A stretch of 64,000 nt of DNA, taken from NCBI RefSeq assembly GCF_947493125.1, contig NZ_CANLQB010000006.1:124001-188000 (forward strand), read 5' to 3'. The stretch is from an uncultured Roseobacter sp. (GTDB taxonomy: Bacteria; Pseudomonadota; Alphaproteobacteria; Rhodobacterales; Rhodobacteraceae). The first letter of the stretch is position 1, and each line of letters starts with the position of its first letter. Below the pieces are notes generated by a model. It searched no databases. It saw only the letters and a program-made list of their open reading frames with translations, and was not told the DNA's origin. The position numbers were made by a program, and so were the translations under genes. This document shows positions 18,740 to 28,987 of the stretch, in pieces.

Positions 18740-18816
18740 GGCCCCGTGGCTCAACTGGATAGAGCAGCCCCCTCCTAAGGGGCAGGTTGCAGGTTCGAAT
18801 CCTGCCGGGGTCGCCA
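18740..18816 (+). tRNA. tRNA-Arg(CCT)
   Basis: 77 nt form a full cloverleaf. The acceptor arm pairs GGCCCCG with CGGGGTC, followed by G and an encoded CCA. The D arm is GCTC/GAGC. The anticodon stem GCCCC/GGGGC encloses loop CTCCTAA, giving anticodon CCT. The T arm is GCAGG TTCGAAT CCTGC. Its last 15 bases are the left repeat of the adjacent element, which rebuilds an intact tRNA end on integration. Confidence 0.97.
18802..18816. repeat. Left attachment repeat (attL), in tRNA-Arg 3' end
   Basis: CTGCCGGGGTCGCCA, the last 15 bases of tRNA-Arg(CCT), recurs exactly at 28973-28987. Its location at a tRNA 3' end beside an integrase supports an attachment core. Confidence 0.88.
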
Positions 18817-18898
18817 CGTCTGCAAATCGTAGATTTTTCGCCTTTCAGATCAGACCTTTGCGTCAGCGTGTCCCGTTTTTGGGTTTGCGTGTCCCGTT

Positions 18899-19927
18899 TC
18901 ATGCGACCCCCACAAGAAGTTTGACCATGCGCTCCCGATCTGCAGCGCGCGTATAACGCTCCACTTCGGAAAGGCTCATATGACCTGCCATCGCGGCGAT
19001 CTGGTGTGTTGTCGCGTCGTTTTCGGCCCAGTAGATGCAGAATGCTTTGCGAAGACCGTGAAGGCGCGCGGACATTCCAGCTTCCCGTGCTGCCTCGCCA
19101 AACAGGTTGCCGAGACTTTCCTTTGCGAAAGGGCGGCCAAAACTGTTTGTAATGAAGGCCGGAGCGATGTCCGGGGTACGAGCAATCACCGCGCGCAGTT
19201 CGCGGGTCAATGGAACGCGGGCTTTCACCCTGCTTTTGTGGCGCTGATACACAAGCAGATCGCCCCTGATATTCTTGCGCCCCAGCTTGGCGAGGTCGCC
19301 ACGCGCAGCTCCCGTGTAGAGCGCAAGATCAAACACCAGCCTCTCAAGCGTTTCGACGGGCCATCGCTGCTGAAAAGCTGCAATATCCTCCGCATCTGCG
19401 ACCGGGAACCCTTGGATTTTCGGTCTGTCCAATTCGATTCCAGCCATCGGATTTTTGGCAATGAAGCCCAGGCGACGCAGGTGCTCAAAGACCGGCTTAA
19501 GCGCCTTGTACTCGTTTACGGCGGCGTGACCGCCCTTGGCATACAGCGCGCGTTCAATGGCATCGCTCGTGATCGTCTTGATCGGGCGTTCGCCCTGCGC
19601 TTTCCGGTAACGGGTGAAGATTGCCAGCCGGGACTTCTTAGTTTCTTCCGAGTATTTGGCCCACTTGTCATTGCCAGATATGTAAAGATCGAGCGCCCAG
19701 CTAAAGGTCTCTGCCTTTGGGGTTTCAATGCCCGGTGGCATGTCTTGCCAACGCGCATGTTCTGCAGCCCAAGCCGCCAGCACTCTCGGATCACTGGGGT
19801 GCAAACCATGAACACCGAGACTGATTTCAACCTCTTTGCCTTTCGCGCGATCTAAGCGCCGATAATAATGCGCCCACCGGCCCGTCTTGCGGCGGCGACG
19901 GCTCTTGAGATGAGGAACTTTCTTCAC
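18899..19927 (-). CDS. int: Tyrosine recombinase (site-specific integrase)
   Basis: 342 residues from a GTG at 19927 that overlaps the stop of the upstream small gene and follows GGGGATGGGG. The C-terminal catalytic domain shows TGAARGDLAKL with the first active-site Arg, then LHGLRKAF (H-x-x-R), and GHMSLSEVERYTRAADR with the His and the nucleophilic Tyr. An N-terminal SAM-like core-binding domain precedes it. It integrates the element at tRNA-Arg. An in-frame ATG at 19960 would add 11 residues. Confidence 0.95.
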   Translation of the reverse strand: MKKVPHLKSRRRRKTGRWAHYYRRLDRAKGKEVEISLGVHGLHPSDPRVLAAWAAEHARWQDMPPGIETPKAETFSWALDLYISGNDKWAKYSEETKKSRLAIFTRYRKAQGERPIKTITSDAIERALYAKGGHAAVNEYKALKPVFEHLRRLGFIAKNPMAGIELDRPKIQGFPVADAEDIAAFQQRWPVETLERLVFDLALYTGAARGDLAKLGRKNIRGDLLVYQRHKSRVKARVPLTRELRAVIARTPDIAPAFITNSFGRPFAKESLGNLFGEAAREAGMSARLHGLRKAFCIYWAENDATTHQIAAMAGHMSLSEVERYTRAADRERMVKLLVGVA

Positions 19928-20115
19928 GCCCCATCCCCGGAAAACGGACGATCTTGCCAACTCGACACAGCTTCAGACTGGTCAGGATAATCGAATTGAA
20001 CGCCATCGGGCCCCAAGCTCTTGATGCGCGCCTTGGGATGCAAAGCGGTCACCGTCTTGTGTGCCTCGATCACCTGGCGCTGGGTCGGCATTGAAGGGGC
20101 GGGATGCTTTGGCAA
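19924..20115 (-). CDS. Small hypothetical protein upstream of integrase
   Basis: 63 residues, starting MPKHPAPSMPTQRQVIEAHKTV. The stop overlaps the integrase GTG start by four bases and the start lies 3 nt after the previous stop, so coupling supports it as a real gene. No family recognised. A role with the integrase, for example as a directionality factor, is only a guess. Confidence 0.6.
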   Translation of the reverse strand: MPKHPAPSMPTQRQVIEAHKTVTALHPKARIKSLGPDGVQFDYPDQSEAVSSWQDRPFSGDGA

Positions 20116-20118
20116 AAC

Positions 20119-20586
20119 CTAGTCCTCTTCGCCCAGGATTTTTGCTTCTTCTGACATTCCGTGCCGTACAGCTTTCAAGATGTTACTAAGGTCAAAACAA
20201 ACGGTCGCAGCCAAAGCGCGGTGCTGATGCGCGCCGAAGTACGCGCCTTCTTCAGGCCTGCACAACATCGGAGTATCGTTGAAACCATCCACAGGAAAGT
20301 CGGCCCGAGTCTGATCGGGATACCTCTTCATCTCGCGGATGGATCTGATAACACCGCAAGCATACATGGCTGCAGTCTTCTTGCTGAAGCCGCGGTCACC
20401 AAACACGTCCATCAAATGCCGATAAACCAGCAAACCCGCAATGTCAGCTTCATCAAAGACCCGAGATACACCTGCGCGCGTTTCTGGTGCACAGTGATAC
20501 TCGCCCGAGGCAACATCTTCATTGAAGCGTTGAGGGTCAATTCTTGCAATCCGGCAGGCTGCTTTCGTACGAAACTTGAGATCCAC
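20119..20586 (-). CDS. MerR-like helix-turn-helix protein of the element
   Basis: 155 residues from a GTG at 20586 that follows AGGAG at good spacing. A TTG at 20607 is possible but less likely. The N-terminal half (FRTKAACRIARIDPQRFNEDVASGEY, then RVFDEADIAGLLVYRHLM) looks like a MerR/excisionase-type DNA-binding fold. It may play the part AlpA plays in other satellites: excisionase or activator. Two inverted repeats with CCTATTG half-sites lie directly upstream (20597-20650), plausible autoregulatory operators. The DNA here is visibly more AT-rich than the capsid operon. Confidence 0.7.
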   Translation of the reverse strand: MDLKFRTKAACRIARIDPQRFNEDVASGEYHCAPETRAGVSRVFDEADIAGLLVYRHLMDVFGDRGFSKKTAAMYACGVIRSIREMKRYPDQTRADFPVDGFNDTPMLCRPEEGAYFGAHQHRALAATVCFDLSNILKAVRHGMSEEAKILGEED

Positions 20587-20596
20587 CGCACGTTCT

Positions 20597-20650
20597 CCTA
20601 TTGGCAATTGCCATAGGTAATAACCTTAGCCTATTGGGAGTGTCAATAGG
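20597..20650. promoter_or_regulatory. Two CCTATTG inverted repeats
   Basis: Site 1: CCTATTG at 20597 faces CATAGG at 20612-20617 around a perfect GGCAATTGCC core. Site 2: CCTATTG at 20630-20636 and CAATAGG at 20644-20650 with a 7-nt spacer. The centres are about 33 bp apart, near three helical turns, so dimers would sit on one face. They precede the MerR-like gene, and site 1 lies within its leader. Confidence 0.6.
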
Positions 20651-20651
20651 T

Positions 20652-21101
20652 TTATCGATCTCTTTCGATACGCCCAGGGTTTTGAAGAAGGTCTGATATT
20701 AGATCGAGCTGAGTTGACATCTTCCAAGCCGCCATTGCTACCCGATCCGCCATATAGAGAGCAGCGTCTCTAACGGGACCTTCTTCGTCGATATGTCCAT
20801 TTTGGATCATGGCTTCGAGAGCAACCGAAAAATGCAACACTTCTTCAGCGCCCTCAGGATAGCCCAGCCCGCCACCGTTCATTAAACCGAGTGCAGCACG
20901 GATCGCGTCGGAAGGTTCGGCGGGTAGACTATCGAGGTAGTTGGCTTGCTGAGAGCGAAGACGCTCGGCTTTCTCGATATTCTCTCGAAAGATGTAGTCG
21001 GCGCAGAGCGCTTGGCCTTGGACGCTCGCGTTCTCGCGGCGAGTGACTGGCTTGGGCCGAGTTCTATTATTCGCGCAGGCGCGTTCATTGGTCATTGTCA
21101 T
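20652..21101 (-). CDS. Hypothetical protein of the element
   Basis: 149 residues from the ATG at 21101, which follows GGAG; an ATG at 21110 has no ribosome site. No family recognised. The middle and C-terminal parts look alpha-helical (YIFRENIEKAERLRSQQANYL, then DRVAMAAWKMSTQLDLISDLL). It is divergent from the XRE repressor gene across a strong palindromic operator pair, so it is probably the first gene under that repressor's control. Confidence 0.65.
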   Translation of the reverse strand: MTMTNERACANNRTRPKPVTRRENASVQGQALCADYIFRENIEKAERLRSQQANYLDSLPAEPSDAIRAALGLMNGGGLGYPEGAEEVLHFSVALEAMIQNGHIDEEGPVRDAALYMADRVAMAAWKMSTQLDLISDLLQNPGRIERDR

Positions 21102-21118
21102 GGTCTCCATTTGTGATA

Positions 21119-21160
21119 TGATCCCTAAGGATCAGTAAGCAAATTGATCCTTAGGGATCA
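21119..21160. promoter_or_regulatory. Paired palindromic operators of the XRE regulator
   Basis: TGATCCCTAAGGATCA at 21119-21134 and TGATCCTTAGGGATCA at 21145-21160 are reverse complements of each other, and each is itself nearly palindromic. They fill the gap between divergent genes starting at 21101 and 21168. This is the usual geometry for a phage-type repressor switch. Confidence 0.75.
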
Positions 21161-21167
21161 AGGGAAA

Positions 21168-21395
21168 ATGACAGGCAATCAACTTAAAGCCGCGAGATCT
21201 CTCAAGGGTTGGACCCAAAGACAGCTGGCAGATGCAGCATCGCTTTCCGTGCCAACCATCAAAAGGGCTGAGGGATCAGCGGTAGCAACTGCATCGGAGC
21301 AAGCTGTTAGATCAATGCGTGAAGCGCTCGAAAGAGCAGGAATCGAGTTCATAGAAGAGAACGGCGGCGGTGCGGGTGTGAGATTGAAAAAATGA
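21168..21395 (+). CDS. XRE-family repressor of the element
   Basis: 75 residues from the ATG at 21168, after AGGGAAA. It is essentially one helix-turn-helix domain: QLKAARSLKGWTQRQLADAASLSVPTIKRAEG. Proteins of this size act as dimeric repressors in phages and islands. The operator pair at 21119-21160 lies immediately upstream. Its stop overlaps the next start as ATGA. Confidence 0.88.
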   Translation: MTGNQLKAARSLKGWTQRQLADAASLSVPTIKRAEGSAVATASEQAVRSMREALERAGIEFIEENGGGAGVRLKK

Positions 21396-21634
21396 GCGAA
21401 TACTCTTTTCAAGAACAGTGCTTTCTCTGTGGTTCAACCTTCCAATTCGGCCCCCATCGATATGACGGAAAAATGGTTCACGGTTACCAAGTGATGGCGT
21501 GTAAAAGCTGCTACGATGGCAACTGGGATGGTTGGTCGCCGATGTTCGAAGGCAAACTGCTGGAGCATCTGCGCCAAAACCAAATTCAGATACCAGCGAG
21601 GAACAGCGAAGGCTATCTCCCTAGATCATTCTAG
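21392..21634 (+). CDS. Small zinc-ribbon-like protein
   Basis: 80 residues. Two cysteine pairs, CFLCG and CKSC, about 24 residues apart, suggest a zinc ribbon. It overlaps the XRE gene by four bases, so both are made together; an antirepressor or regulatory partner role is inferred only from that. It converges on the end of the capsid operon. Confidence 0.7.
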   Translation: MSEYSFQEQCFLCGSTFQFGPHRYDGKMVHGYQVMACKSCYDGNWDGWSPMFEGKLLEHLRQNQIQIPARNSEGYLPRSF

Positions 21635-21657
21635 GCCTCGCATGTCGCTATGATGGC

Positions 21658-21987
21658 TTAGCTGACTGCTCTTGGGCGCATGGGAATGGACTTTCCAATC
21701 TGCTCTGCGTCGGTGCCGCCAAGGGCGCGATAGGCCTCGCGGGCATGCATCATCATCCCATGTCGCAATGAATCGTCTGCGATCCTTACGGCGCGCCGGT
21801 TGTCAGCAGTCTCAAGATTTGGAGGCCATGCCACGAGCCCCTTTGCCTTTGTGCGCACGAGGGCGCAGCCTTTAAGCTCCACGCCTCGCACGGTGCAATC
21901 GAAATAGGCGATGATGATTGATCCACCTCGGTTCGGTTTTGGATTGGCTACACGGCTCAATCCGGTGATTGCTACAAACTCTGTCAT
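21658..21987 (-). CDS. Hypothetical protein at end of the capsid operon
   Basis: 109 residues from the ATG at 21987, after AAGGA. The start is just inside the end of the portal gene region (portal stop at 21990). Beta-rich N-terminal half (SIIIAYFDCTVRGVELKGCALVRTKAKGLVAWPP), then a helix (HAREAYRALGG). I do not recognise a family. As the last gene of the head operon it may be a head or packaging accessory. Confidence 0.6.
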   Translation of the reverse strand: MTEFVAITGLSRVANPKPNRGGSIIIAYFDCTVRGVELKGCALVRTKAKGLVAWPPNLETADNRRAVRIADDSLRHGMMMHAREAYRALGGTDAEQIGKSIPMRPRAVS

Positions 21988-21989
21988 TT

Positions 21990-23054
21990 CTATTCCTTCC
22001 AATCCACCATGCGCATTGCGCCGGACAGGTCGGCCGGCGGGATATCCGCCTCTTTTGCCTCGGCCATCGCCTTGATGATCGCTGATAGCGCTCTGGCACG
22101 CCCACCAGCGTCGAAGGCCTGTAGAGGTCGGATCGTGTCGATCTCGATTTCAGCTCCCAGCTTATTTGACGCCTCGTCGGCCAACAGTGTAGCGATGGGT
22201 TGAAGGGTCCAGATTGCAAGCTGGCGCTGTGCCTCTCGTACGACCGGCCCGGTCGCGGCCCTGTTCAAAAGCGATGGCAGCACTCCGTAGGCCATCGCGA
22301 CAGCCTCTCGCGCCGCCGAAAGGGTCTCGGCAGTCATGCTCTTCGAGAGGTCGGGCGACAATTGATCCGGTTTCTGGCCGATCTGAGGGTTCATGCCCGC
22401 TGCCGTCGCCTGGGCTACGCCTTCGATCACCAGCGTCTTGCCGCGCCGTCCAGAGAATGCATGCCTCATGCTTTCCATATCCTCTGCACCGGCGTCAGGC
22501 AGGGGGACAATCTGGCTTCCCAGCGGTGCGTTCTCGAAGGTTTCGCTCAGAGCGGCCTCGACCGCGTGCAGCATGGCCCCGGTAAGACTGGATCGCCGCA
22601 GGGGCGCGGTTCCGATCCACGGCGTTTGGTTGTCCGATCCGATCCGCAGATGCAGCACCTCAGCCGCAAGCGCGGTGATCGTGCGCCCCCCGCCGGCCTC
22701 GGGAAGAGACAGGCGGTATGCGCTTGGTCGGCCACTGCGGGTGGTCACGTCCCAGTCTGTCGCCGGGACGAGGCCCATGTCGGTGATGAGGTAGACCGCC
22801 TCGCCGTTCAGTGCGACTGCGCGGGCAATCATCGCCATGGTCTGGCGGGTCAGCAAGTCCGTGCCTGAGACGTCCGCCATTGCGAAGCCACCTTCCCAAA
22901 GACTGACGCAGCTTTGCACCGTCGCCGTCAGCTCGGCCACTCCGCGCCGCCCGCTGATGTAGCTGTCCCGCGCCGCCATCACCTGGGCGGTGTAACCTGA
23001 TCCGCTGGACCGTTGTTCGATCGGGCGCAGCTTGTTCATGATCCATTCGAGCAT
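21990..23054 (-). CDS. Phage portal protein, HK97 family
   Basis: 354 residues from the ATG at 23054, with GGAGGTGACG just before it. The family pattern is visible in LTRQTMAMIARAVALNGEAVYLI, DVTTRSGRPSAYRLSLP and AAREAVAMAYGVLPSLL. Portals form the dodecameric ring for DNA entry. It is somewhat shorter than the 390-420 residues usual for the family, mainly at the N-terminus. It lies 2 nt after the protease stop. Confidence 0.9.
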   Translation of the reverse strand: MLEWIMNKLRPIEQRSSGSGYTAQVMAARDSYISGRRGVAELTATVQSCVSLWEGGFAMADVSGTDLLTRQTMAMIARAVALNGEAVYLITDMGLVPATDWDVTTRSGRPSAYRLSLPEAGGGRTITALAAEVLHLRIGSDNQTPWIGTAPLRRSSLTGAMLHAVEAALSETFENAPLGSQIVPLPDAGAEDMESMRHAFSGRRGKTLVIEGVAQATAAGMNPQIGQKPDQLSPDLSKSMTAETLSAAREAVAMAYGVLPSLLNRAATGPVVREAQRQLAIWTLQPIATLLADEASNKLGAEIEIDTIRPLQAFDAGGRARALSAIIKAMAEAKEADIPPADLSGAMRMVDWKE

Positions 23055-23056
23055 CG

Positions 23057-23668
23057 TCACCTCCAACGGTTTGAGGCATGGCGCTGCGTGATCCGCTTTG
23101 CCAAATTGCCAACGGTTTGCCAATTCCGGGCCTCGATCTGTGCTTCTGGATAAGCTGGCCGGGTCACCGCAGACAGCTCGTAGAGAAGCGCATCATTGAC
23201 CGTCCGAATGAGCGCCATGCCTTCGCGCGGATCTTCCTCTTCAACCGTCTCGGCCTTCGGTGAGACCCGTTCTGGCGGTATCCTGAAACCTGGCGAAAGG
23301 CCCAAGATCAGCCCCGCCGCGACACCCGACAGGAAGTCCGCCACGTAGGACGCTCTCTGCAACTCTGGCGAGATCGAGGCGGTGAAGGACAGCGCATCGT
23401 CGCTGTCTTCGAGGGTGAGACTCCCTGCCCCTCGCGATGCGATGGGGCGGTCATAGTCGTGGCCAACCAAAAAGTGAATGTCTTCCTCGGGCCGCTCGAC
23501 ACGGTAGCCGAAGGCCCGAGCTGCGATCTTTTCCTTGCGAGGCCGACCACGCCGGCCGCCATCGGTCAGGACAGCGGGCCGGTTATATGGAAAGCGGCCT
23601 GCGATGGTGACGTTGCCGTCACCATCATTGCGCAATTCCAAGCGCCCGCTGTGCGCGCCCCAGAGCAT
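23057..23668 (-). CDS. HK97-type prohead protease
   Basis: 203 residues from the ATG at 23668, whose A is shared with the capsid gene stop (TGATG). The U35-like fold appears as RLELRNDGDGNVTIAGRFPYN, then HFLVGHDYDRPIASR with the catalytic-type His. SYVADFLSGVAAGLILGLSPGF and LYELSAVTRPAYPEAQIEAR follow, the latter a family hallmark. It processes the capsid protein or scaffold during head maturation. A longer frame to 23803 overlaps the capsid gene and is not used. Confidence 0.9.
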   Translation of the reverse strand: MLWGAHSGRLELRNDGDGNVTIAGRFPYNRPAVLTDGGRRGRPRKEKIAARAFGYRVERPEEDIHFLVGHDYDRPIASRGAGSLTLEDSDDALSFTASISPELQRASYVADFLSGVAAGLILGLSPGFRIPPERVSPKAETVEEEDPREGMALIRTVNDALLYELSAVTRPAYPEAQIEARNWQTVGNLAKRITQRHASNRWR

Positions 23669-24921
23669 CACTGGATGCCTGTCAGGATGTGTGTCTGCAC
23701 CGAGCGCGAGACCGTCACATCCATCGTCGCCAGAGCCGTCAGGCGCAGCCCGCCGGATGCCGCGTCCGAGTAAGGGTCGCGGATCAGATCCACGGCACCC
23801 CATGTCCCGACCATGAACGGCGGCACCCCGCGGGCCGTGGTGGTCATCAGCGCGGTGGTCTCGGCAGGATCGCCGCTCGGGGCTGCCAGCGCGTTGGTCG
23901 CGATCTGCACGCTACCCATGCGCTTGGTGAGCAAGTCCCAGTGGGTTTCAGCGGTACCGCCGAAGAACTGGTCATCCATGGACGCCCAGACTTCCGAGCG
24001 CAGCATGAGATTGACCGAACCGGGACCTGCGGCGGCGTTGGCGTTGATGAATTCCGTCACCACCGGAACAAACCTCGAATAGTTCGCCTCGGCGTCAATC
24101 GGTGTACTCGCAATGCCAAATCCGGCAGCGCCTGGGATGATGCCGGTGGGCTCGCCGGATGCCCCTGACCCAAGGAACACTGCCCGGTCGATCTCGACCG
24201 ACATGGCCCCGTTCATGTCGCGCCGCACCGCTTGCTCAAGGGCCGCACCGGTCTGCTTCAGAGCTTTCCGGCTGATCTTCATCTGTACGCCCAAGGTGTG
24301 ATCCGGCTCCAGCATCCGTTCGATGGTGGTGAAAGGGATCGGATCGGCCACGTTGCCGGTTTCGCTCTGCGCCCAGCCCGCCGTCACGTTGGAGTTTGTC
24401 ACCGGGATTTCCCGGTCACCAATGCCCACGTTGATCATCCGGCCTCCCATCCGCATCGCCATGCCATCGGCAAAAAGGCGGTCGATGATCGGGGCCTGTT
24501 GGGTCGGGTTCGCGAGATTGGCGGAGACGGTTTCACCGGCGCGAACCTCCAGCGCTTCCCAAGGAACCGGGACGCCACGGTAACCGCCCTGCTCTCGCAG
24601 CTCGTTCACGATCTCGGCGGTCTGGCCATCCAGTTGCCGCCCTTCATCGAGGGCCAGCGCGACCTGGCGCAACTCGAACCCGGCCATCATCTCGGTCCAT
24701 TCCTGGTCGGAACGGGTCTCCAGCTCACTCCCCGCATCCCGGCGCTCGGTGTCTTCTGCGATCAGAGCCGCACGATAACGGGTTTCGTTCGACCGATACT
24801 CGCGATCCAATTCGTCCATGTTGCGGACTTCGTCCTCGGTCGGGGTTTCTTTTCCGGCCAGCTCGGCCAGAGCTTGGCGGATCTCACTTTGCCGCCGGGA
24901 GATTTTCACACTGTCGAGCAT
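23668..24921 (-). CDS. Major capsid protein, HK97 fold
   Basis: 417 residues. The N-terminal about 110 residues are a charged helical delta-domain (QSEIRQALAELAGKE, then ELDREYRSNETRYRAAL) that acts as built-in scaffold and is cut off by the protease. The rest has HK97-type features: GWAQSETGNVADPIPFTTIE, KISRKALKQTG and FLGSGASGEPTGIIPG. It builds the icosahedral shell. It precedes protease and portal in transcription, the reverse of the usual portal-protease-capsid order. Confidence 0.94.
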   Translation of the reverse strand: MLDSVKISRRQSEIRQALAELAGKETPTEDEVRNMDELDREYRSNETRYRAALIAEDTERRDAGSELETRSDQEWTEMMAGFELRQVALALDEGRQLDGQTAEIVNELREQGGYRGVPVPWEALEVRAGETVSANLANPTQQAPIIDRLFADGMAMRMGGRMINVGIGDREIPVTNSNVTAGWAQSETGNVADPIPFTTIERMLEPDHTLGVQMKISRKALKQTGAALEQAVRRDMNGAMSVEIDRAVFLGSGASGEPTGIIPGAAGFGIASTPIDAEANYSRFVPVVTEFINANAAAGPGSVNLMLRSEVWASMDDQFFGGTAETHWDLLTKRMGSVQIATNALAAPSGDPAETTALMTTTARGVPPFMVGTWGAVDLIRDPYSDAASGGLRLTALATMDVTVSRSVQTHILTGIQ

Positions 24922-24924
24922 GAT

Positions 24925-25263
24925 TTATCCTTTCTGCTCAATAGGGGTTTTGCCGGGCCGCTCAAGCGACTCGACTGCGTTCCGCCAGTCCAGGCGGTCT
25001 TGTCGGGGCGGGGGGTGCCCGCACTCGATCCGGGTTTTTCGGGAGTGGCAGCCTGGGCAGAGCGCCTGCAGGTTGCCGGAGGCATATGACAGCTCGGGGT
25101 GCGTTCTGACCGGCTTGATGTGATCGACTTCGAGACGGCCACCGCAACCGCAGGACCGGCAGCGATATCCGTCCCGTTCGAGGATTTCGGCGCGCAGGAC
25201 CTTCCATCGCTTGGTGCGCGTGACCGTCCGGGAATGCCGATGATGTTCCTTGCGTATGCTCAC
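24925..25263 (-). CDS. HNH endonuclease
   Basis: 112 residues. The HNH/zinc motif is plain: CRSCGCGGRLEVDHIKPV, then NLQALCPGCHSRKT. Such small HNH proteins sit beside terminase genes in HK97-like phages and are needed for terminase cleavage of DNA. Start and stop are tightly coupled to neighbours (four-base overlap with head closure; 3 nt to the capsid gene). Confidence 0.93.
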   Translation of the reverse strand: MSIRKEHHRHSRTVTRTKRWKVLRAEILERDGYRCRSCGCGGRLEVDHIKPVRTHPELSYASGNLQALCPGCHSRKTRIECGHPPPRQDRLDWRNAVESLERPGKTPIEQKG

Positions 25264-25601
25264 GGCGTTTCCTCTGTCTCTGCGGTGATTTCGAGAAAAG
25301 CGCGGCTGTCAGGGACTTCCTTGATCCCATCGATTTCGAAGATGATCCCTTCGTGCACCAGCCGATCAGTGCGGCGGATGCTGCGTCCGAAGGCAGTCGC
25401 CCGGATGACGAACCGAGAGACCAGCTTGTTCTCCCACCGCCCGGCGCTCAGTCGTTCCGAGTCGGATATGTCTCGCCTCCGCGCGAAGATCGGCTGGCCG
25501 AGGTCCGTCCAGGCGTATTCGACAACTCCGCTTGCAGTGTCGGTCATCAATGCGCGCTGTATTTGAATGCGCCTGGTGAGGCTTCCGGCGTTCAGAACCA
25601 T
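25260..25601 (-). CDS. Phage head closure (head-tail adaptor) protein
   Basis: 113 residues. The start AGSLTRRIQIQRALMTDTASGVVEYAWTDLG is characteristic of the SPP1 gp16/HK97 gp10-like head closure family (phage_H_T_join), and the ending FEIDGIKEVPDSRAFLEIT agrees. It seals the filled head and provides the docking surface for a tail. Keeping this gene while lacking tail genes is notable. It overlaps the terminase stop by 10 bases. Confidence 0.88.
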   Translation of the reverse strand: MVLNAGSLTRRIQIQRALMTDTASGVVEYAWTDLGQPIFARRRDISDSERLSAGRWENKLVSRFVIRATAFGRSIRRTDRLVHEGIIFEIDGIKEVPDSRAFLEITAETEETP

Positions 25602-27295
25602 GCCATCCTCGCTTTCGACTTTGGTTGAGCTGCGATCCGGGCGCCTTGGGCGACAGCCAGAACCGATGCCGCCGCCGCGTCGATCCGACCGGTGGAGCGC
25701 GCCTTGGCGATCTTGATATTGTTGGCGGGGTCTCGCAGGCAGACCGTGTCAGCAAAGGCGGATCGCAGCAGCAGGGACGGTTTGGCTTTCACCAGCCCAT
25801 CGAAGGCCGCGCGCCGGAACCGCTCCGCATCCTCGCCGCCGTCGCGGAAGCCCTGACCGCGCCAGACCAGCGGCGCGCGAATGCCCGCCCTGCTGATGGC
25901 CTCGCCCAGCTCGGCCTGCTTGTAGCGGTCCATGGTGATCGCGATGACGGGCTGATCCTCGACCTGCCGCATCACCTCGACGAGCCAGGGCGCGACCGGC
26001 ACCGTCTTGTCGCCCAGGACCGTCAGCTCGCCTCGGTCCTGCATCTCCACGTAACGCCCGGCCACGCCATCAGACTGACCGCGATCCAGAAGGCTGGGCA
26101 TTGAGGGGAAGGTGCCGAGGCATTCGAGTCTGCCGGTCTCGGGCCAGTAGAATGCCGCCGCCGTCATCGAGGCCGAGCCGCCCAGGTCGATCCCGATCAC
26201 CACCCCGCCCTGACGCGGTGGCAGGGCGTCGGTTTCGCAGCTCAACCACTCATCCAGCGTGATCAGCAGATCGCGGGCCTCACCGGACACGCGTTCGTTT
26301 CGATTGTAGAGACGGAAGCTTGTGAGGCTCGATCCGCCACGTGCTATCGCCCGCTTCGCTTGGGCTTCGAGCCATTCGAGTGAGCTGCCGATGCCGTGCG
26401 GCGCGCCTGGGTTCGCGATCAACAGGCTTTCGGAGTCATCGGCGGGCAAGCCCGGTGCTGGGCGATGTTCCTGCACGTAGCAGCCTGGGGCCGGGTCATC
26501 GATCCATTGTGAAAACGGGTGCGTGTCGTCGCTGGCCGAGGTGCTGATTAGGAAGGCTCGGCCACCTCGCTTGCCGAGACCGGATAACAAGGCGTGCTCC
26601 AGCTCATCGCCCCGGTCCAATGCCCAGTGCCCTCGCTCATCGAGGATGGCCATCGTCGGTGCGCCACCCAGGGCCGACTTACCGTCCGCTGCGATCACCC
26701 GCAGCACATGCCCGCCGCCGTCACCGCCAAATTCGATTTCTAGCCGAGGGGCGCGCCGGTAGATCAGGTGGCGCTGCACTTCCAGAGGCAGCGTGGCGGC
26801 GAACCCGGCCACGAAATCCCAGATGATACGGCCCTGATCGCGCGTCCGGGCGGCTGCGATGATTTCCCGCCTGGGCTGGCGGTCCCAGATCCCGACGAGA
26901 CCACCGAGCGCCAGACCTGCAGTGATCGCCGACTTGCCGTTGCCACGTCCGATGCTCAACACGGCGTTGGCCGTATCTTCGGCCATGGCACCTTCGATGA
27001 ATTGGCGCTGAAACGGGGCAAGCTCGACCGGCTTTCCGGCGTTTGGGCCCTCTGGGATAGCTAGCCCATGCATGAAGCGCATAGCTCTTTCTGCGGGCGT
27101 CGAATTTTCCATCTCACCGCCGGGCGCGAAAATTGAAAACTCAAGAGCGCGGTTACCACCACCAGCCAAAGTCGCGGCATTGGGACCATTCCCAAAGAGG
27201 TCATCCTGATGATCGACGGCGCGCACGGGTTCGGGCTTCGGTTCGAGCTTCGAGCCGTCCGCCTTTCTCCACCGTCTCGCCTGCTTCTTCGTCAT
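25592..27295 (-). CDS. terL: Large terminase subunit (TerL)
   Basis: 567 residues. ATPase: Walker A SIGRGNGKS near residue 115; Walker B APTMAILDERGHW. The nuclease domain has VVIGIDLGGSASMTAAAFYW with a metal-binding Asp, and the C-terminal block IDAAAASVLAVAQGA. It translocates DNA into heads and cuts it. The first about 60 residues are polar and probably flexible. A small terminase would be expected just upstream, but no convincing one is found in 27296-27683. Confidence 0.95.
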   Translation of the reverse strand: MTKKQARRWRKADGSKLEPKPEPVRAVDHQDDLFGNGPNAATLAGGGNRALEFSIFAPGGEMENSTPAERAMRFMHGLAIPEGPNAGKPVELAPFQRQFIEGAMAEDTANAVLSIGRGNGKSAITAGLALGGLVGIWDRQPRREIIAAARTRDQGRIIWDFVAGFAATLPLEVQRHLIYRRAPRLEIEFGGDGGGHVLRVIAADGKSALGGAPTMAILDERGHWALDRGDELEHALLSGLGKRGGRAFLISTSASDDTHPFSQWIDDPAPGCYVQEHRPAPGLPADDSESLLIANPGAPHGIGSSLEWLEAQAKRAIARGGSSLTSFRLYNRNERVSGEARDLLITLDEWLSCETDALPPRQGGVVIGIDLGGSASMTAAAFYWPETGRLECLGTFPSMPSLLDRGQSDGVAGRYVEMQDRGELTVLGDKTVPVAPWLVEVMRQVEDQPVIAITMDRYKQAELGEAISRAGIRAPLVWRGQGFRDGGEDAERFRRAAFDGLVKAKPSLLLRSAFADTVCLRDPANNIKIAKARSTGRIDAAAASVLAVAQGARIAAQPKSKARMAWF

Positions 27296-27547
27296 CGTCT
27301 TGCCTATCTCTCTGCTCAGCCGTTGTTCTTCATGCTATTGCCAACCGGTTCAGACCCTCGAAGAGGTCGGAAAGCGGGTTACCGTGGCGTGGGATCAAAC
27401 CCGCCTCCCGCCCCGACCTCAGCGATGTTGCTTGCCAACTCGGACGAGCCCCCGCTTGCGGCCAGACCTGCCTTTCCCTCGGCTCGGTCCGCTCTCCCAT
27501 GTTCACCGCCTTAGAGGGTGGCAGTGGGGCCTTCGGGCGTGGAGAGA

Positions 27548-27680
27548 CCGCGTGACGCGGAATAGCTGCCCTTGTGCTGTGGCCCGTTTCCCGGTAGCAC
27601 TGTGATGCGTCAGCCCCGGCTAACCCGTGAAAGCCAGCAGACGCATAGGCCCGCCGCTGCAACGGCGGGCTTTGCTTTTC
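27548..27680 (+). ncRNA. Candidate structured RNA (or packaging site) upstream of terL
   Basis: Four consecutive hairpins: CCGCG/CGCGG at 27548-27560; GTGCT/AGCAC at 27574-27600; ATGCGTC (27605-27611) with GACGCAT (27640-27646), enclosing GGCT/AGCC; and the terminator hairpin at 27649-27670 with its T-rich tail. No convincing gene lies in 27296-27683, where a small terminase or cos site would be expected. The T tail points to plus-strand transcription, antisense to the operon. A cos or leader function on the minus strand is the alternative. Confidence 0.45.
27649..27680 (+). terminator. Rho-independent terminator
   Basis: A perfect 8-bp stem, GCCCGCCG/CGGCGGGC, with loop CTGCAA is followed by TTTGCTTTTC. 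On the plus strand this is a good intrinsic terminator, yet no plus-strand gene lies upstream within the element's head operon. Confidence 0.7.
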
Positions 27681-27683
27681 CTC

Positions 27684-27914
27684 TCACCTCTCAATCAGTT
27701 CCCCAATGCACGGGGCGGTGGCGCCCAGCTCAGACACCAGACGTCGCATGATCTGCGCCTGCTTCACCGTGGGGTGCCAAGATGAACGCTTGCCCTGGCG
27801 CGCGATGGATTTGACAAAGCCCTTGATCCAGTCGTCTGACCCATCGGCCATGACGCGGCGCATGACGAGCAGCCACCGCGTGGTCAGGATCTCATCCAGT
27901 TCGAGGTCGGTCAT
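27684..27914 (-). CDS. Small conserved-looking phage protein
   Basis: 76 residues, helical, with WLLVMRRVMADGSDDWIKGFVKSIARQGKRSSW in the first half. Its start overlaps the connector stop as ATGA, which supports translation. No family recognised. It is one of two candidates, with the 28456-28806 gene, for an unrecognised small terminase, but there is no direct evidence. Confidence 0.65.
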   Translation of the reverse strand: MTDLELDEILTTRWLLVMRRVMADGSDDWIKGFVKSIARQGKRSSWHPTVKQAQIMRRLVSELGATAPCIGELIER

Positions 27915-28459
27915 GCCTGCACCCCGCGATACCGCGCCCCTACCCGCGCCATGTGCGGCGAGGTGGTCAGCGACTTGGCGTCCATCGGAGATCTACCATC
28001 GTAATGAAGTGCGGCCTGATCCAAGAGGGCTTGGGAAAGATCGGGAGGCACGCTGGACTCGGCCAAGCCGAACCCCGCCTGGTACTCGATGTTGATACGG
28101 TCCGGCGTCAAATCGTGATAGCTGGCCAGCCATCTGATGTAGGGTCGATTTCCGCCGTCAAAATCGAAGCCCGTGAATGCCGCGCCATCAATGGCTACGG
28201 TCGGTACATGGTCGAAAGCCACCGGCCCAATGGGAAGCCGCAATCCGTACTCTTTGGTAGGACTGAAGATCGTGACCCGGATCGTCTGCGTGATCAAAGC
28301 AATCTGGGCAAACTGCTCAAGTTCTGCCGCCGCCGTCAGTCCGATGGTCTGGATTGCAGCGTCTTCAGCGTCATCGGAAATACGCAAATGCAACTTGAGC
28401 TGCTCAAGATCAAACGGAAGTGCAGCGCTTTCCTCTATCCGGTGAACAAGCATCTTCAT
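27911..28459 (-). CDS. Head-tail connector, gp6-like
   Basis: 182 residues from the ATG at 28459, which overlaps the previous stop as ATGA. The start ALPFDLEQLKLHLRISDDAEDAAIQ, then AAAELEQFAQIALITQTI, and the ending IEYQAGFGLAESSVPPDLSQALLDQAALHYD are typical of the phage gp6-like connector family (phiE125 gp8 group). It binds below the portal ring. A longer frame to 28582 overlaps the upstream gene. Confidence 0.9.
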   Translation of the reverse strand: MKMLVHRIEESAALPFDLEQLKLHLRISDDAEDAAIQTIGLTAAAELEQFAQIALITQTIRVTIFSPTKEYGLRLPIGPVAFDHVPTVAIDGAAFTGFDFDGGNRPYIRWLASYHDLTPDRINIEYQAGFGLAESSVPPDLSQALLDQAALHYDGRSPMDAKSLTTSPHMARVGARYRGVQA

Positions 28460-28806
28460 GCCGAAATCTCCACTTCGCTGATGTGATTGCGGAAGGCCAT
28501 CTGCTCTGCGGGCGAAAGAGCTTCGTAGGCCGCGAGGGCGTACGCCTTGCATTCGGCCCGGCTGGCAATGCTGGCCCACCAACGCGCGTCGTTCATCGGT
28601 GTCAGGAGCGGAGGCAGCGGGTAGCCCGCCGCCGTCAAAGCTGTCTCGGCGACTGCTCGGGCATCTTCGTCGGAGAGCGTAGACAGTGCAGCGTACGCCA
28701 ACCCAGCCCGCTCTCGCGCGTCCAGTCGAATTGCAGCAATTCGGGAGAGTTTAAGCCAGGCTTCAGAACTGCCCACAGCCAGCGCATAGCCGACAGCGCG
28801 CGCCAT
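28456..28806 (-). CDS. Hypothetical protein, first gene of capsid operon
   Basis: 116 residues from the ATG at 28806. Helical and Ala-rich (EAWLKLSRIAAIRLDARERAGLAYAALSTLSDEDARAVAETAL). No family recognised. It is coupled by ATGA to the connector gene. The frame stays open to a TTG at 28929 (157 residues), but that part looks non-coding; neither start has a clear ribosome site. It could be a DNA-binding packaging factor by position only. Confidence 0.6.
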   Translation of the reverse strand: MARAVGYALAVGSSEAWLKLSRIAAIRLDARERAGLAYAALSTLSDEDARAVAETALTAAGYPLPPLLTPMNDARWWASIASRAECKAYALAAYEALSPAEQMAFRNHISEVEISA

Positions 28807-28972
28807 GCGTTTGTGCTGGGGCTTTATGTACTTGGATAAGGTCGAGGGTCTTGCAGGATTCGCGTGTCCCGCTCGCTTTCCTAACCTATTGACCTCTAAC
28901 GCTCCGCAAACACTGTGTGTGTCCCGCAAGGCAGCGTTGCTTTTATTGGCCTTTTTGGTAGTTCGGGCAGTT

Positions 28973-28987
28973 CTGCCGGGGTCGCCA
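28973..28987. repeat. Right attachment repeat (attR)
   Basis: CTGCCGGGGTCGCCA, identical to the last 15 bases of tRNA-Arg at 18802-18816 and in the same orientation. It marks the far end of the element, about 170 bp beyond the first capsid-operon gene. Confidence 0.85.

Follow-up and report, generated by a model that had tools for sequence, protein, structure and literature searches.

The described systems closest to the element reported here are the capsid-forming phage-inducible chromosomal islands (cf-PICIs), whose definition we follow as given in the available text of PMC10690885 and whose use of diverse tails is described in the accessible part of PMC13345588. The Streptomyces satellites MulchRoom and MiniFlayer, compared here by their description, also combine capsid and packaging genes with small heads, and the MulchRoom tail has the length of that of its helper (PMC10690885, available text); they differ from the element in having direct terminal repeats and virulent helpers. 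The HK97-type siphophages of Rhodobacteraceae (Paracoccus phages Shpa and vB_PthS_Pthi1, and the congener prophage L128) have a related head-closure protein, Hc1, but bear full tails, and the capsid, portal and large terminase subunit (TerL) of the element are only distantly related to theirs or unmatched. The gene transfer agent (GTA) of Rhodobacter capsulatus is equipped with a tail of its own and packages DNA of its host; GTAs are defined by tail genes of their own and by the lack of an integrase and att sites. The published name Charybdis was considered for the element and rejected: according to the available text of PMC12324425, Charybdis elements measure 4.6 kb and are without capsid or terminase.

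Within the stretch of 64,000 nucleotides that was analysed (the window), on a contig of an uncultured Roseobacter sp., an insertion of 10.17 kb occupies positions 18817–28987. Judged by its sequence, this element is quite probably a tailed-phage satellite that makes a small HK97-type head of its own and uses the tails of siphophages. Its integration target is a tRNA-Arg (CCT) gene (18740–18816, forward strand). Both copies of the identical 15-bp repeat that an earlier, sequence-only reading had placed next to tRNA-Arg were found: the left copy, which forms the 3′ terminus of the tRNA, constitutes the attL core (18802–18816), and the attR core (28973–28987) is identical to it at 15 of 15 positions. 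The insertion is clean, since in five of 13 other congeners the site is empty and the tRNA runs directly into the right flank of the window; in the remaining eight the site is occupied by other DNA, is without the tRNA or was unreadable. A search of the whole element against plasmids in near mode yielded no match. The tyrosine integrase (353 aa; 18899–19960, reverse strand; PF00589, 1.5e-13) is 85% identical to that of the element L036, which likewise sits at a tRNA-Arg. With an integrase, att sites and no tail genes found, the element departs from the definition of a GTA. A head cluster domesticated by the host, either as a compartment or as a new GTA, would agree with the strong conservation of the head genes, but the integrase, the att sites, the empty sites in congeners, a patchy spread and the use of ten tRNA targets are the marks of a mobile element, and we consider domestication extremely improbable.

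The integrase and the HK97-type head and packaging genes recognised in the first reading were confirmed: integrase, portal, S78 protease, capsid, HNH, head-completion protein, TerL and a gp6-like connector all scored above the Pfam cut-offs, and the same set also matched PHROGs. The head operon lies on the reverse strand and comprises TerL (25592–27295; PF20441 and PF03354; phrog_9, 6.7e-58), the head-closure protein or stopper Hc1 in a variable slot between HNH and TerL (25260–25601; PF05521, 3.5e-12; phrog_25, 7.2e-13), the HNH endonuclease (24925–25263; PF01844, 2.6e-09), an HK97-type major capsid protein of 417 aa (23668–24921; PF05065, 3.3e-13; phrog_617, 4e-20), the S78 prohead protease (23057–23803; PF04586, 1.3e-14) and the portal (21990–23123; PF04860, 1.3e-15). 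It ends with an ORF of 114 aa (21658–22002) without family match, a relative of which in L061 is 77% identical. Also on the reverse strand, a conserved structured RNA upstream of TerL (27345–27670; modelled core 27459–27613) is accompanied by the head–tail adaptor Ad1 (27911–28459; PF05135, 2.7e-05; phrog_442, 6.3e-17) between two small genes that we term chassis genes: orf27684 (76 aa; 27684–27914; predicted three-helix), which is common to the lambda-head elements L085 and L090, and orf28456 (about 127 aa; 28456–28839; predicted all-helical), for which the ORF opens at 28929 and the start was picked by alignment. The connectors of the first reading could be refined to Ad1 and Hc1. Fold searches with models of orf28456 and orf27684 returned nothing below E 2.

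Like a cf-PICI, the element has its own capsid, protease, portal and head–tail connectors together with TerL, HNH, integrase and att sites, and no tail genes were found in it. It differs in its order TerL-Hc1-HNH-capsid-protease-portal, which agrees with the earlier remark that a capsid-protease-portal order after TerL sets it apart; in its structured RNA; and in its small flanking genes, which also occur with a lambda-type head. It differs further in that AlpA (no match), Pri-Rep and the small terminase subunit (TerS) were not found in the window element, in agreement with the suspected lack of a clear TerS or primase. No TerS-like ORF was recognised among the 17 scanned, although a diverged TerS may have escaped recognition; the HNH protein matches one PHROG named TerS (phrog_4581), inside its HNH part. 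Assignment of orf28456 or orf27684 as TerS was rejected because lambda-head elements with both genes have their own Nu1-like TerS. Among 46 capsid-family loci, an AlpA-like family occurs in eight, its representative falling just under the Pfam cut-off, and an AAA_25 RepA-like family in 13; primase genes are present in some relatives. The failure to find AlpA, Pri-Rep or TerS keeps us from filing the element as a cf-PICI, although it would work alike. The sequence-only reading had allowed either a cf-PICI or an independent alphaproteobacterial version; with cf-PICIs compared by their described content, the sequence fits the independent version better than membership among cf-PICIs.

No tail, lysis or replication family was matched among the 17 element ORFs scanned (Pfam and PHROGs), as had been claimed at the outset. 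Nor were recognised tail genes found within the stretches read around 45 mapped capsid loci. The 25 commonest of the 104 PHROGs matched by 146 interior ORFs (of 181 listed, 35 were set aside: homologues of orf28456, ORFs lying opposite head genes, and others) included no tail tube, tape measure or fibre, and nine reference tail and neck proteins gave no match in 99 IMG/VR loci at E 1e-8. In relatives, two interior ORFs have matches to HK97-gp10/Neck1 families, termed putative tail component by Pfam. A gene of about 180 aa that recurs in 21 of 45 loci was without family match. The element's own head, terminase and integrase, and the RepA-like and primase genes of some relatives, might suggest a complete miniature virus able to do without a helper; such a virus is highly unlikely here, as no lysis, tail or receptor-binding gene was found and the tail connectors Ad1 and Hc1, needless for a tail-less virus, are retained.

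Of the 394 genomes searched in the host family, for which the nearest named record is Rhodobacteraceae, 40 carry a capsid at least 50% identical to that of the window; a few of these matches are partial. The same head set was seen in 45 mapped loci (three of the 40 genomes, G110, G262 and G325, were not taken in, and G252 and G381 were added later). Elements with both att sites (n = 27, window included; 18 of the 45 mapped loci, without att pair owing to a contig end, no tRNA found or no repeat, are omitted) sit at ten tRNA types and measure 9,340–11,200 bp (mean 10,388, SD 453). Comparison of the portal with five relatives gave a dN of 0.09–0.12 and a dS of 1.0–1.5, and dN/dS was 0.07–0.31 for portal, TerL and capsid, values that are rough because dS is high. 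The head genes are under purifying selection. In a scan of viral contigs with the capsid (E 1e-3), the best 80 of 558 related stretches were 62–68% identical. The 99 IMG/VR loci (98 contigs, six in part) are mostly 4–13 kb long; excised forms, sought among them as direct terminal repeats, were not found, and many of the loci are integrated copies.

These relatives bear directly on the reading of the element as a decaying prophage stripped of its tail, replication and lysis genes. Such remnants do exist, as exemplified by a fragment in G395 (L127) with integrase pieces, Ad1 and orf28456. In the element and its relatives, however, the reading frames are intact and dN/dS is low, 27 att-bounded elements at ten tRNA types share one size, no tail match was obtained around the 45 capsid loci or in the 99 viral loci, and the TerL of nine satellites forms a clade separate from the tailed prophages compared. 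Among the loci covered, neither relatives combining these head genes with a tail nor decaying frames came to light. We therefore consider a decaying prophage very unlikely and rejected it on dN/dS, constant size and tail-less relatives. The outcomes named beforehand as speaking against a satellite, tails in homologues or a failure to find intact relatives, were looked for and did not turn up in the stretches covered; the proposed search for a tail-less family of the same order in the host family instead returned many intact relatives. Intact tail-less relatives with head genes under purifying selection support the original proposal of a capsid-forming satellite.

Between HNH and TerL, the Hc1 position is a slot for a single gene that is empty or filled, depending on the element, and where filled it holds two different Hc1 families in two sets of elements. 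It is filled in 13 and empty in 29 of 42 loci; in IMG/VR it is filled in 50 and empty in 40 of 92 loci, after four of 96 without HNH or TerL had been dropped. Because the slot is empty in most mapped loci, those members must close the head otherwise. When TerL, capsid, portal, orf28456, Ad1 and Hc1 were compared with phage records, only Hc1 had Rhodobacteraceae siphophages as its best matches. The window Hc1 is up to 45% identical to that of prophage L179, 41% to that of Pthi1 and 39% to that of Shpa; the Hc1 of satellite L044 is 62% identical to that of prophage L176. In a tree of 115 columns, with two of 26 inner branches starred and hence weak, the Hc1 proteins of nine satellites are intermixed with siphophage Hc1, and a single satellite clade was rejected (p-AU 0.035). 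The TerL proteins of the same nine satellites form one clade (100/100) apart from the tailed prophages compared, in a control tree with 26 of 29 rows. The window Hc1 groups with those of satellites L045 and L052 (83/97), so that L044, L054 and L070, and not the window, show recent exchange. Hc1 occurs in 21 non-satellite places in 394 genomes; in the 15 places read (14 of the 21, with seven left out, plus L128) a tail-terminator gene always adjoins Hc1, and 14 also gave a tape-measure match.

Docking of these heads onto the tails of the host GTA, and not onto phage tails, was considered because, of the PDB chains, the Ad1 family profile matches only the GTA adaptor Rcc01688 of R. capsulatus (6.2e-18), which is weak evidence since the PDB holds few adaptors. 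The Hc1 profile, moreover, reaches the PDB GTA stopper (0.012) as well as loci of congeners presumed to be GTAs (best 1.4e-6), the Hc1 of satellite L070 shares 31.5% identity with the GTA stopper in genome G000 (1.3e-7), and G000 has a GTA cluster and no PF10145 tape measure. Yet Hc1, the piece that would meet the tail, is nearer to siphophage Hc1 (profile 2.4e-36 on prophage L128 versus 1.45e-3 on the G000 stopper). The window Hc1 matches 15 prophage Hc1 proteins (2e-7 to 2e-27) and gave no match to the GTA stopper, from which it is distant. Hc1 thus disfavours GTA tails, a reading that we regard as very improbable.

For a satellite using siphophage tails, we propose that infection or induction by a siphophage would lead the integrase to excise the element, and that the head operon would be expressed behind the structured leader RNA. 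HNH and TerL would cut and package one unit of roughly 10 kb into the element's own small head, Ad1 and Hc1 would close the head and offer a docking surface to the tail of the helper siphophage, and the helper would supply lysis. An exchangeable Hc1 would act as the key that fits satellite heads to a given tail. A PF10145 tape measure, the one family searched, was absent from G000 and six other carriers, the only other PF04860 portal in G000 belongs to the GTA, and no resident helper was seen. If the proposal holds, the helper of a capsid-forming satellite becomes predictable from its Hc1, and this prediction, as well as how satellites switch helpers, becomes directly testable. The element would bring capsid-building satellites into Rhodobacteraceae, for which none was named in the literature found, and most of the 99 IMG/VR loci could pass for broken prophages.

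New here, besides the exchangeable Hc1 in the HNH/TerL slot, are lambda-type heads on shared flanking genes and a covarying RNA. Elements sharing the small flanking genes bear a lambda-type head at similar size, and the structured RNA, a strongly covarying family, lies upstream of the terminase in some HK97-type and some lambda-type elements. It matched no Rfam family at its cut-off and no phage record, and a scan of 11 siphophage prophages did not find it. The region 27345–27670 was rejected as an ORF (110 aa), as the frame is broken by one-base indels and the covariation is that of an RNA. It was next read as a cos site; its occurrence with two different terminases (L085 and L091) argues against a terminase-specific site, but a cos site may still lie inside or beside it. 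It is perhaps a little short of an even chance that a chassis nearly constant in size, at about 10.3 kb, takes whole HK97 or lambda head modules and an Hc1 tail key repeatedly exchanged with siphophages, with the RNA controlling the head operon. Such a chassis would combine the integrase with two small helical proteins, joined in some elements by a dedicated structured leader RNA, which would act, for example, by processive antitermination or helper sensing and would not be a terminase-specific packaging RNA.

The remaining genes lie between the integrase and the head operon. Three are on the reverse strand: a small ORF beside the integrase (63 aa; 19924–20115), without family match and with a relative in L036, which at a guess encodes an excision factor; an ORF of 162 aa (20119–20607) without Pfam or PHROGs match and with a distant relative in L060; and an ORF of 152 aa (20652–21110) without family match. 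On the forward strand, a small ORF of 80 aa (21392–21634; nothing above cut-off) accompanies a helix-turn-helix regulator of 83 aa (21144–21395; PF13560, 6.6e-07), which is divergent from the head operon and whose family is present in 15 of the 45 mapped loci.

The 15-bp repeat CTGCCGGGGTCGCCA occurs at positions 18802-18816 and 28973-28987 of the window, and its left copy forms the 3' end of a tRNA-Arg(CCT) gene, the sole tRNA of the window. The left flank of the insertion was present in all 14 genus genomes searched, the window's own included; the site was empty in five of the remaining 13 (L197, L200, L201, L203/L209 and L206), with the tRNA directly abutting the window's right flank. The repeats and the empty sites in the genus therefore delimit an insert of 10,171 bp (18817-28987), which has a G+C content of 60.3% compared with 65.0% and 63.4% for the flanks. 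Just within attL, beside the integrase gene, lies a tandem pair of 21-bp repeats (18857-18898), possibly arm-type integrase sites.

Pfam and PHROGs named an integrase, a divergent HTH regulator, portal, S78 protease, HK97 capsid, HNH and TerL families, and together assigned the head-closure gene Hc1 (PF05521, phrog_25) and the head-tail adaptor Ad1 (PF05135, phrog_442). Seven small ORFs (19924, 20119, 20652, 21392, 21658, 27684 and 28456) had no match above cut-off in these collections, and the scan of 17 element ORFs revealed no tail, lysis, replication, AlpA or TerS protein. The minus-strand operon runs orf28456, Ad1, orf27684, a structured RNA, TerL, Hc1, HNH, capsid, protease, portal and orf21658. 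The portal, TerL and capsid genes are maintained, with dN/dS values (NG86; each gene compared with five or six type-A relatives) of 0.07-0.11, 0.07-0.21 and 0.17-0.31, respectively, which are rough because dS often exceeds 1.

A capsid match at E<=1e-10 was found in 49 of the 394 host-family genomes; in 40, the window's own included, it was at least 50% identical, a few matches being partial. The nearest named record to carry the window's capsid comes from a Rhodobacteraceae MAG. Sequence of up to 20 kb was taken around each of 40 capsid matches (three with capsids just 28-31% identical), and these stretches, the window and loci from IMG/VR and MAGs gave 45 mapped loci. TerL, portal, protease, HNH and an integrase recurred across them, as did RepA-like and AlpA-like genes, Hc1 and host genes; one further recurrent family (f6, ∼180 aa, 21 loci, in the portal/protease interval) had no family match. 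In 27 loci, window included, the element was bounded by a tRNA-anchored direct repeat. These elements measure 9,340-11,200 bp (mean 10,388, SD 453) and occupy tRNAs for Arg, Phe, Asn, Ser, Glu, Thr, Cys, Leu, Lys and Pro. L074, L075 and L076 represent a second, distant clade with capsids 28-31% identical and the same layout; the two with att found are 10.4-10.9 kb long.

Apart from the five core families, no selected ORF exceeded 554 aa in 26 of the 27 bounded elements, and the longest in L071 has 726 aa; the reference tape measures of prophage L128 and of Pthi1, Shpa and Rivra are at least 650 aa long. When 146 of the 181 interior ORFs listed for these elements were scanned, the commonest PHROG matches (among the 25 listed of 104 matched families) were replication, primase, excisionase and Hc1/Neck1, and two ORFs matched HK97-gp10, a neck protein named putative tail component by Pfam. 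A capsid-alignment search of IMG/VR at E 1e-3 returned at least 558 related stretches, the best 80 with capsids 62-68% identical. Among 99 IMG/VR loci checked, two of which share one contig and six of which are covered in part, we found capsid in 99, HNH in 96, protease in 94, TerL in 93 and portal in 86, and no match to a reference tail or neck protein. At class level, capsid matches at 1e-20 were found in 4 of 352 genomes, namely the window's own and three outside the host family, of which G683 matches very closely.

Both HNH and TerL were found in 42 loci. The two genes abut or overlap in 29 (one with a 33-nt gap); in the other 13 they are spaced by 323-347 nt, an interval that contains a single gene. 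In seven loci, window included, this gene is related to the Hc1 of the window (phrog_25); in six it belongs to a second family, f18, the tested member being a phrog_161 Hc1. In 92 IMG/VR loci the slot held Hc1 in 31, another gene of that size in 19, was empty in 40 and odd in two. Hc1 matched 11 phage records, each across at least 80% of its length, with Paracoccus phages Pthi1 (41%) and Shpa (39%) as best matches. The portal and Ad1 had no match in these records; the capsid matched 19 over at most 59% of its length, orf28456 matched one weakly, and TerL matched 174, all below 60% (∼27% in the best rows).

Across the 394 genomes, Hc1 occurs in 30 places: nine satellites and 21 non-satellites. 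We read the neighbourhoods of 14 of the latter and of L128, a siphophage prophage of a congener. A tail-terminator gene adjoins Hc1 in all 15, and a tape-measure match was found in 14, that of L128 itself coming from PHROGs. At L044, TerL is 87% identical to the window's TerL, and Hc1 shows 62% identity with that of prophage L176 and 48% with that of the window. The TerL tree places the nine satellites in one clade (100/100). The Hc1 tree is a short, weak one, with 2 of 26 inner branches starred; in it the same nine satellites require four changes, and their monophyly is rejected (p-AU 0.035). Our reading of these observations is that the tail-docking gene Hc1 has been repeatedly exchanged between satellites and tailed phages. 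The window's Hc1 groups with satellites L045 and L052, and thus recent exchange is not seen for the window itself.

Sequence conservation and covariation point to a structured RNA of ∼330 nt on the minus strand at 27345-27670. DNA identity over this interval is 80-89% in seven loci (the figures for L033 and L036 are the same), and single-base indels disrupt its reading frame across relatives. RNAalifold gave 95 pairs, 14 of them changed on both sides; the single-sequence fold is only modestly stable (z -2.0; other strand, z -0.8). Of 64 loci from satellites or islands, 11 (the eight training rows plus L033, L086 and L091) scored E 1e-11 or better against a model of a 154-nt core built from eight of the conserved loci. 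The RNA was found in none of 11 siphophage prophages scanned alongside and in 16 of 50 IMG/VR loci scanned; most mapped satellites have no recognisable copy. Both-side changes affected 15 of 36 pairs in 10 sequences (99.2% of cells paired) and likewise 15 of 36 in 15 distinct IMG/VR sequences outside the model (99.4%). Such alignments are biased towards the model they are fitted to; the values drop to 33-45% in slid controls. No Rfam family reached its own cut-off. The RNA lies on the head-operon strand upstream of terminase (∼1 kb upstream in L040); because of this orientation and position, we guess that it may be a leader or antitermination element.

Two carriers, L085 and L091, are lambda-type, and the RNA occurs in some members of either head type. 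L085 (9111-19338, G065), an element of 10,200 bp at tRNA-Cys, encodes a Nu1-like TerS, GpA terminase, lambda-family portal and S78-capsid_4 fusion, and also carries a phrog_2545 Ad1, homologues of orf28456 and orf27684, and the RNA. A profile of orf28456 (A4) matched 57 of the 394 genomes at 1e-4, many without the window-type capsid. Among 20 such loci read in addition to L085, six have a protease-capsid fusion related to that of L085, five of these also with its portal and TerL; four lambda-type elements bounded by a repeat are 9,680-11,086 bp long. The remaining orf28456 loci are islands in which integrase, AlpA-like and RepA-like genes occur and no head genes were recognised. In the integrated islands L093, L095, L096 and L099-L101, an orf28456 homologue accompanies an integrase or genes of AlpA-like/RepA-like type; no head genes were recognised in them, and several have long ORFs of no named family.

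The closest known kind of element is the cf-PICI. In contrast to cf-PICIs, as characterized in PMC10690885, PMC10448857, PMC10803314, PMC13345588 and PMC11389934, AlpA, Pri-Rep and TerS were not found in the window element, and we therefore do not file it as one. The border is blurred, since other family members carry AlpA-like, RepA-like and primase genes. None of the papers listed in literature searches dealt with capsid-forming satellites of Rhodobacteraceae, a weak negative given the poor coverage of subscription journals. The large satellite surveys of Moura de Sousa 2023 and Eppley 2022 may already include some such elements, unnamed.

The window's genome, G000, has two PF04860 portals, that of the satellite and that of an RcGTA-like gene transfer agent cluster (L126, G000:C4), whose adaptor is of the same family as the satellite Ad1. 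The PF10145 tape measure was not found in G000; among eight genomes examined it occurs only in the congener G395. By this single family, therefore, no resident siphophage helper was seen; an incoming phage is the likelier helper. G395 carries both the full siphophage prophage L128 and a fragment of a related element (L127, 9101-10585) consisting of integrase pieces, Ad1 and orf28456.
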